Assembly (NCBI RefSeq): GCF_000377345.1
Contig: NZ_KB898037.1
Coordinates: 249,412-313,411, forward strand
Reading direction: 5' to 3'
From: Thioalkalivibrio sp. ALJ16
GTDB lineage: Bacteria > Pseudomonadota > Gammaproteobacteria > Ectothiorhodospirales > Ectothiorhodospiraceae
DNA: 64,000 nt
The position numbers were made by a program, and so were the translations under genes. The first letter of the stretch is position 1. Every line of letters starts with the position of its first letter. Shown here piece after piece: positions 9,498 to 58,416 of the stretch. The notes under the pieces were generated by a model. The model searched no databases. It was given only the letters and a program-made list of their open reading frames with translations, and was not told the origin of the DNA.

Positions 9498-9602
9498 ATG
9501 CGTGACTGGTTCACCTTTGAAAACTTCCCGCTGACCTTCACGGCGGGTCTGATCATCTGGTCCTGGATCAGCTTCTTCTCCGTGATCCTGTTCGGCGGCT
9601 GA
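9498..9602 (+). CDS. Putative 34-aa single-span membrane miniprotein
   Basis: This short frame begins with ATG preceded by GAGGA seven bases upstream, a good ribosome site. It encodes 34 residues: a short polar/aromatic start (MRDWFTFENFP), one hydrophobic helix rich in Trp, Phe and Ile, and a stop at TGA. It lies 112 bp after ccoS and directly before the bidirectional terminator, so it would be the last gene of the cbb3 assembly transcript or a small unit of its own. I do not recognise the sequence. It does not resemble the CcoM sequence I recall from Pseudomonas stutzeri, although size and topology are comparable. A role with cbb3 oxidase is inference from position only. Confidence 0.55.
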   Translation: MRDWFTFENFPLTFTAGLIIWSWISFFSVILFGG

Positions 9603-9646
9603 TCGCGCGAAACCCGGCCTTGCGCGGTTCATCTGCGCCTGGCAGC

Positions 9647-9678
9647 AAAAAGGCCCCGGCAGTCGCCGGGGCCTTTTT
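9647..9678. terminator. Bidirectional rho-independent terminator between the cco cluster and rpoH
   Basis: A perfect dyad, AAAAAGGCCCCGGC / GCCGGGGCCTTTTT, surrounds an AGTC loop. The nine-base GC stem with A5 on one side and T5 on the other can end transcription from both the plus-strand cco genes and the minus-strand rpoH. Confidence 0.93.
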
Positions 9679-9714
9679 CGTGGGGCTTGTCGTCGACCGC
9701 GAAGGGCGCTACGG

Positions 9715-10581
<867 letters not shown>

Positions 10582-10614
10582 GCGTTCGGATTCCTCCTGC
10601 TTCATGAATCTAGA

Positions 10615-10641
10615 TTAGCAGTCTGCGGATAAGAGTGCTAA
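10615..10641 (-). promoter_or_regulatory. CIRCE-like operator (HrcA site) at the rpoH promoter
   Basis: The plus strand reads TTAGCAGTC, nine bases, then GAGTGCTAA. The CIRCE consensus is TTAGCACTC-N9-GAGTGCTAA, so 17 of 18 defined bases match with the exact 9-base spacer. It covers the proposed -10 element and start site of the rpoH sigma-E promoter, a placement expected for repression by HrcA. hrcA itself is not in the window. Confidence 0.8.
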
Positions 10642-10657
10642 ACCCTGAAAAAGTTCC
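10630..10657 (-). promoter_or_regulatory. Sigma-E (RpoE)-type promoter of rpoH
   Basis: On the minus strand GGAACTT (10657-10651) is followed after exactly 16 bases by TCTTA (10634-10630). The envelope-stress sigma-E consensus is GGAACTT-N16-TCTGA. Transcription would begin near 10624, leaving a leader of about 43 nt before the ATG at 10581. Enterobacterial rpoH also has a sigma-E promoter, which supports the reading. Confidence 0.7.
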
Positions 10658-10684
10658 GGACGTTTCCCGGGGTAGCCGACCGCG

Positions 10685-11610
10685 TTACGGCGCGTCCCGC
10701 AACGCGTGGCCGCTGCCAAGTCGGGCCCCCAGCCAGCCCAGGAGCAGCCCGGCCAGCAGCAGGGTGAGCAGATGGCTGGCCCCCGGGAGTGCGAGCCGGA
10801 ACGGGAGGTCGAATGCCGCGGCCGCCTGTTCCAGTGGTGCCCGGCTGAGGGCGATCCCGGTCAGCAGCAGCATGCCGGCGAAGACCCCGCCCCCAAGGCC
10901 GGTGATCAGTCCGCCGTACAGCGATGGCCGCCGCAGGAAGCAGTGGGTGGCCCCGCTGATCCGCGAGATTGCGATCTCCTCCTGGCGCTCGCGCAGTTCC
11001 GAGGCGGTCGCCAGGGCCAGAATCAGCACTGCACCCAGCCCCAGCAGGGCGCCCACCACGGCGAGGATGCGCAGCCCCAGCTGGTGCAGGCTGTTTAGCT
11101 GGCGGACCCAGTCATCGTCGCTGACCACGCCGGCCCCCGGCGCGATGGCCGCGAGCGCGTCGCGCAGCGCGCCGAGCGCGGCGGGGTCGGTGGTGGCGGG
11201 CACGACATCGATCACATCCGGCAGCGGGTTCTCGTCCAGCCAGTCCAGCAGGCCTGGATCCGCCAGCCTCTCGCGGTACTGTGCCAGGGCCTCGTCGGCG
11301 TCGATCCAGTCCCAGCGTTCCACACGGGCATCGGACTCCAGGTGGTGCTCCAGCTCGGCGACGGTGTCGGGTTCCACCGCGTCCAGGTAAAGCGCGATTC
11401 GCGGGTCGTGGTCGATGTGCGCGGACAGGGCCCGGGCGTTGTCCAGCAGGACCCAGAGGTAGGCAGGAAGCGCCAGGATGAAGCCGAGTACGGCAATGCT
11501 GATCAGGCTCAGAATCGGTGCCTGCAGCCGGCGCTGGAGGCTCCGCCGGGCCGCATCACGGTGCGCCTCCATCCAGGCCGGGACCGTATCCAGCAGGCGC
11601 CGGCCGGGTC

Positions 11611-11614
<4 letters not shown>
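10685..11614 (-). CDS. ftsX: Cell division protein FtsX (ABC-like permease)
   Basis: FtsX is the integral membrane partner of FtsE in the division-site complex that controls septal murein hydrolases. The 309-residue protein has a cytoplasmic N-terminus, a first helix (about residues 34-56) and a periplasmic loop of about 120 residues. Three closely grouped helices form the FtsX permease domain, where the ELRERQEEIAISRISGAT segment is typical. The start overlaps the ftsE stop by 4 bp, giving coupled expression. Order ftsY-ftsE-ftsX-rpoH is the usual gammaproteobacterial one. Confidence 0.95.

Positions 11615-12288
<674 letters not shown>

Positions 12289-57243: not shown

Positions 57244-58416
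<1,173 letters not shown>

Follow-up and report, generated by a model that had tools for sequence, protein, structure and literature searches.

A sigma-E-type promoter overlapped by a predicted HrcA operator upstream of rpoH in Thioalkalivibrio sp. ALJ16 and other Gammaproteobacteria

In E. coli, chaperones act on the sigma-32 protein, and extreme heat brings additional transcription of rpoH by sigma-E. It was through the P3 promoter of E. coli rpoH that RpoE was first identified, according to the available part of PMC8103513. Like the promoter described here, P3 is an RpoE-type promoter of rpoH with a GGAACTT-like -35 box, but only in the present case does a CIRCE element overlap the -10 box. 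The control genomes in which hrcA was found do not include E. coli. A CIRCE element upstream of rpoH has been predicted in Geobacter sulfurreducens (PMC545781, available in part). There, as here, an HrcA operator stands before rpoH; that organism belongs to another class, the accessible text names no sigma-E promoter, and the two are likened by description and not by sequence. GroE stimulates the binding of HrcA and is titrated by unfolded protein in B. subtilis, Chlamydia and H. pylori, as stated in the accessible part of PMC6032397. The HrcA/CIRCE control of the groESL and dnaK operons involves the same operator shape and the same repressor, and groESL of the present genome has its own CIRCE; the difference is that here a sigma-factor gene is the target, with a promoter of sigma-E type. 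Further cases of CIRCE before rpoH may be listed by Permina and Gelfand (2003). A joint sigma-E/CIRCE promoter of rpoH was not found described in the literature searched, which left most subscription papers outside, nor in the accessible portions of PMC10696704, PMC3135505, PMC3989490, PMC10490939 and PMC11764788. Sigma-E control of rpoH and CIRCE before rpoH are known separately, and their overlap may be the new part.

Organization of the rpoH upstream region

The window is the whole stretch of DNA analysed, 64,000 nucleotides long. Its features around rpoH are as follows.

9715 to 10581, minus strand: rpoH coding sequence (heat-shock sigma factor); likely start ATG 10581, open frame extending to ATG 10605
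10591 to 10597, minus strand: ribosome-binding site GGAGGAA, predicted from sequence
10615 to 10641, no strand: predicted CIRCE (HrcA operator), matching the consensus at 17 of 18 positions
10622 to 10624, minus strand: predicted transcription start within the right half of CIRCE, placed by the usual distance from -10 box to start
10630 to 10634, minus strand: sigma-E-type -10 box TCTTA, whose TC closes the left CIRCE arm and whose TTA opens the CIRCE spacer
10651 to 10657, minus strand: sigma-E-type -35 box GGAACTT, assigned by its position and by GGAAC being kept near CIRCE across the order
10685 to 11614, minus strand: ftsX-like gene (FtsX_Gneg, 206 bits, under its cut-off of 255)
11611 to 12288, minus strand: ftsE (FtsE, 277 bits, cut-off 265)

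The genes are arranged in the order ftsE, ftsX-like gene and rpoH, the last being identified by TIGR02392 (383 bits against a cut-off of 323). ATG 10581 is the likely start of rpoH, chosen instead of the first ATG (10605) because GGAGGAA precedes it and because the first ATG is missing in some close relatives (e.g. G009 and G014). The gene-side end of CIRCE is separated from this likely start codon by 33 bases. No Rfam element was found at gathering scores in 9500-11500.

An earlier note on this DNA had claimed that GGAACTT-N16-TCTTA fits an RpoE promoter and that a CIRCE with 17 of 18 consensus positions overlaps its -10 box. Both readings stood: the boxes lie 16 bases apart, with a -35 conserved in relatives, and the CIRCE was located at 10615-10641, where dinucleotide shuffles give a chance expectation of 0.01 matches per window. 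Read towards rpoH, the element is TTAGCACTC TTATCCGCA GACTGCTAA, with one mismatch in 18 to the inverted repeat TTAGCACTC-N9-GAGTGCTAA of the HrcA/CIRCE operator. It is the only match with up to three mismatches in the window, and the plus reading of the window holds no further site with up to four. A chance CIRCE is ruled out by the expectation given above, and a CIRCE serving another gene by its place upstream of rpoH in 46 of 46 loci of the order. It is also unlikely that the whole CIRCE acts as an mRNA stem-loop, because the predicted transcription start would fall within it.

The boxes agree with the P3 type of RpoE promoter at rpoH, GGAAC(TT) as -35 and TCNNA as -10 about 16 bases apart, and both are conserved. 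A 16-base spacing between the boxes is P3-like. The overlap of the -10 box with CIRCE is visible directly in the sequence, in a register that is kept at rpoH; other registers occur too. GGAACTT-N16-TCTNA with up to one mismatch was not enriched in the own genome (12 matches against 11 for the reversed control), so the claim for the sigma-E boxes rests on their conservation at a fixed distance from CIRCE. An exact GGAACTT-N16-TCTAA occurs elsewhere in the window (57244-57271, minus strand), upstream of a gene which we take to be ahcY-like; it resembles the tail of a reading frame and was set aside as probable chance.

Conservation in the order and regulators of the genome

The order was sampled by 47 genomes of one family and five genera. 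rpoH was found in 46 of them, the 47th (G020) being 58% complete, and a CIRCE with 0-2 mismatches is present upstream of rpoH at every one of the 46 loci. GGAAC starts 16 bases before CIRCE in 36 of the 46 and 17 bases before it in 8, while the remaining two loci have AGAAC (G036) and GAAAC (G014) as -35. The earlier note had made its reading depend on the persistence of the CIRCE half-sites and the sigma-E boxes in close relatives, and with CIRCE in 46/46 and GGAAC in 44/46 it survived that comparison.

The separate conservation of each element was shown with a divergent set of 36 upstream regions of the order, less than 75% alike in their outer upstream part. GGAAC stands at -16 or -17 in 34 of the 36, with 3 occurrences at all other offsets together, and the bases between GGAAC and CIRCE have diverged (0.2-0.56 bits each). 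The left CIRCE arm does not vary in any of the 36 regions. The right arm has one free position (C in 21, G in 14, one other), and two more positions vary in 2/36. Spacer positions 1-3, mostly T, A and A, hold 0.64, 1.12 and 1.41 bits; positions 4-8 are nearly free (0.13-0.32 bits) and position 9 holds 0.73. Such a pattern in spacer and arms would fit two overlapping constraints, a sigma-E -10 box and an HrcA dyad.

Genes for both regulators are present. hrcA, on whose presence the earlier note had also staked its reading, was found at G000:C16:8204-8863 (E 4e-67) and heads a run of frames reading as hrcA-grpE-dnaK-dnaJ, the last three names being our assumption. rpoE lies at C19:32754-33323 (E 2e-92) and is adjoined by the anti-sigma gene rseA (C19:32487-32708, E 8e-17). 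A gene of the rpoE cluster, presumably degP/mucD, is preceded by GGAACTT-N16-TCTAG. The RpoE family model matches the genome at one more place, more weakly. A candidate sigma-E box, GCGAACTT, was noticed before rpoE itself.

Beyond rpoH, a CIRCE with up to three mismatches was found in the own genome at groESL only. The sigma-32-like pair before groES, CTTGACT-N13-CCCTAT, agrees at 10 of 13 positions and is weak evidence, because pairs with at least 9 of 13 arise about 0.4 times per 300 bases. A degenerate CIRCE with four mismatches lies right before the hrcA start (L036:2845-2871, contig C16), and the two relatives checked (G007 and G028; L033 and L034) have a CIRCE with three mismatches at the same place. 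This suggests a weak autoregulation of hrcA.

Distribution over the class and alternative readings

The class was sampled by 369 genomes of 271 genera, drawn evenly from it. The composite was searched as GGAAC, 11 bases, TTAGCACTCNAA, 9 bases and TGCTAA, with up to two mismatches. It is present in 134 of the 369 genomes and 99 of the 271 genera, and in 54 of 157 genomes when one is taken per family; the printed counts of the reversed-pattern control over the same 369 genomes were all zero. The local feature seen in the window is, by these data, a layout shared by many families of the class. A draw of 398 genomes from the phylum gave 12 composite matches, all from this class; as well over a hundred class members were in that draw, the composite share is lower in it than in the even class draw.

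For 79 of the 134 composite genomes the position of rpoH was among the best 150 loci, the 55 others being outside the count, and in 77 of these 79 a composite stands 61-348 bases upstream of rpoH, on its strand. Composite sites away from rpoH were seen at G112:C77, G118:C8 and G314:C40. The composite-like site at G112:C77:14923-14965, the second in that genome, stands upstream of hrcA (C77:13894-14553). A stricter composite without any rpoH sequence, scanned exactly over genome contigs, matched 87 stretches, of which 80 were listed. rpoH is directly downstream in 79 of the 80 listed, and the 80th, with only 64 bases available downstream, could not be judged. This count comes from a comparison with eight proteins of the own genome, rpoH being the first found downstream; a short protein motif in place of the own rpoH protein recognised 53/80. 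The majority of the contig matches are MAGs; isolates under the names Thioalkalivibrio denitrificans and Deefgea chitinilytica are also present. Taken over these genomes and contigs, the composite is shown to be tied to rpoH.

The composite goes together with hrcA, which was found in 268 of the 369 genomes and in 130 of the 134 with the composite; 138 have hrcA without the composite and 97 have neither (Fisher p 2e-18, shared ancestry ignored). The four composite genomes without an hrcA match are 62-85% complete. Counts at the rpoH locus refer to the best-scoring 150 of 346 genomes with an rpoH match, for which 77 CIRCEs were taken from the composite pattern match and 73 other upstream regions were fetched. 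Among these 150, a CIRCE with up to four mismatches stands upstream of rpoH in 118 of the 127 genomes that have hrcA and in 8 of the 23 that lack it (p 2e-9, ancestry ignored). Five of these last eight genomes are less than 80% complete, and the other three (G121, G140 and G248) are 97-99% complete.

One genus of another family offers a comparison of genomes with and without hrcA. Three of its members (G318, G694 and G785) have hrcA together with the sigma-E boxes and CIRCE at rpoH. In a fourth, G210, listed as 100% complete, no hrcA match was found. Its rpoH upstream region still aligns and GGAACTT-N16-TCCAAT is kept at the same spacing, while the outer left CIRCE arm is gone and the best CIRCE match has 8 mismatches. 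By its sequence, the hrcA-less genome has lost CIRCE and kept the sigma-E boxes, as a single event. Sigma-E-like boxes without CIRCE are also seen in the hrcA-less G205, G207 and G296. In the three members with hrcA (L270, L271 and L272), both arms of the rpoH CIRCE are changed symmetrically, TTAGCAGTC-N9-GACTGCTAA, hinting that HrcA in this family tolerates the change or has shifted at that position.

These observations bear on the possibility that the sigma-E promoter is used while the rpoH CIRCE has little or no effect, HrcA in practice controlling groESL alone. The binding of HrcA at rpoH is a prediction; among the best 150 of 346 loci, 9 of 127 genomes with hrcA have no CIRCE at rpoH and the 8 of 23 mentioned above keep one without detected hrcA. 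Against this, the right arm, which is dispensable for the promoter, is conserved across the order apart from one free position. Over the class the rpoH CIRCE tracks hrcA, and in the genus described the member without hrcA has lost it. We regard an inert operator as improbable.

An RpoE match over the cut-off was obtained in 267 of the 369 genomes, with 128 of the 134 composite genomes against 139 of the 235 others (p 4e-16, ancestry ignored); the 128 were read by eye from the printed E-values, as were the 6 of 134 without such a match, and the 139 are the remainder. Of 126 CIRCE-bearing rpoH loci (best 150 of 346), 99 have a -35 in the register of the window, 77 by the composite pattern and 22 by GGAAC or NGAACT at -15 to -18. 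At nine further loci (G089, G101, G113, G136, G145, G201, G229, G314 and G335) the -35 lies 31-32 bases before CIRCE, so that the whole sigma-E promoter is upstream and CIRCE covers the presumed start. The remaining 18 comprise 4 with a -35 at -36 or -43, 3 with GAAAC in the register of the window and 11 without a sigma-E -35 by the rule used. The pairing in more than one register argues for function and not for a fossil sequence.

It may also be asked whether the operator is real and the promoter beneath it is used by another ECF factor, by sigma-70 or by sigma-32, GGAAC/TCTAA being no RpoE promoter. The lack of genome-wide enrichment over the reversed control, the second RpoE-family match in the own genome and the 11 of 126 loci (best 150 of 346) without such a -35 are in line with this. 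Several points speak against it: the -10 box and the 16-base spacing are P3-like, the gene of the rpoE cluster has GGAACTT-N16-TCTAG, a simple scan found no sigma-70 consensus promoter in 10500-11000, and RpoE is over the cut-off more often in composite genomes, in the proportions given above. The -35 is also identical to GGAACTT, given as the E. coli RpoE -35 in the available part of PMC8103513. We consider use by another sigma factor unlikely, to about the same degree as an inert operator. That rpoH is transcribed mainly by read-through from the ftsX operon, with HrcA on CIRCE as a roadblock and the sigma-E boxes of little matter, is more improbable still: the ftsX-like gene ends 27 bases before the -35 box on the same strand with a single weak terminator-like match between them (0.3 expected), but read-through leaves the fixed GGAAC distance and the -10 kept in the CIRCE spacer unexplained.

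Proposed control of rpoH

The reading preferred here, which is very probable in our judgement, is a sigma-E-dependent rpoH promoter with a built-in HrcA operator, which RpoE would drive and HrcA would block. From the elements described we infer, as the earlier note did, a joint control of rpoH by RpoE and HrcA. Under envelope stress, RNA polymerase with RpoE would start rpoH, the transcript beginning near 10623, inside CIRCE. In a healthy cytoplasm free GroEL would keep HrcA active, and HrcA would cover the -10 box and the start and block rpoH. When unfolded proteins occupy GroEL, HrcA would be released and rpoH and groESL would rise together; sigma-32 would then drive the rest of the heat-shock response, and newly made GroEL would re-arm HrcA, closing a negative loop. 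The promoter would work as a gate that opens rpoH to transcription when envelope stress coincides with an occupied GroEL. As the -35 box belongs to sigma-E alone and the right CIRCE arm to HrcA alone, single-site mutants can separate both inputs.

A wider reading, tentative and held at a little under even confidence, is that the composite may be ancestral to the rpoH promoters of Gammaproteobacteria (GTDB sense, including the beta group). HrcA would then read the chaperone status of the cytoplasm at the rpoH promoter in much of the class and gate the envelope-stress input, beside the feedback on the sigma-32 protein, and E. coli P3 would be a remnant after the loss of hrcA and the operator. 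Judged from sequence, the rpoH promoter of many families would bring a chaperone-sensing repressor and an envelope-stress sigma factor together on a shared handful of bases. With the composite, an ancestral wiring of the heat-shock response could be put to the test, and there would be an explanation why this wiring went unseen in a model species without hrcA.
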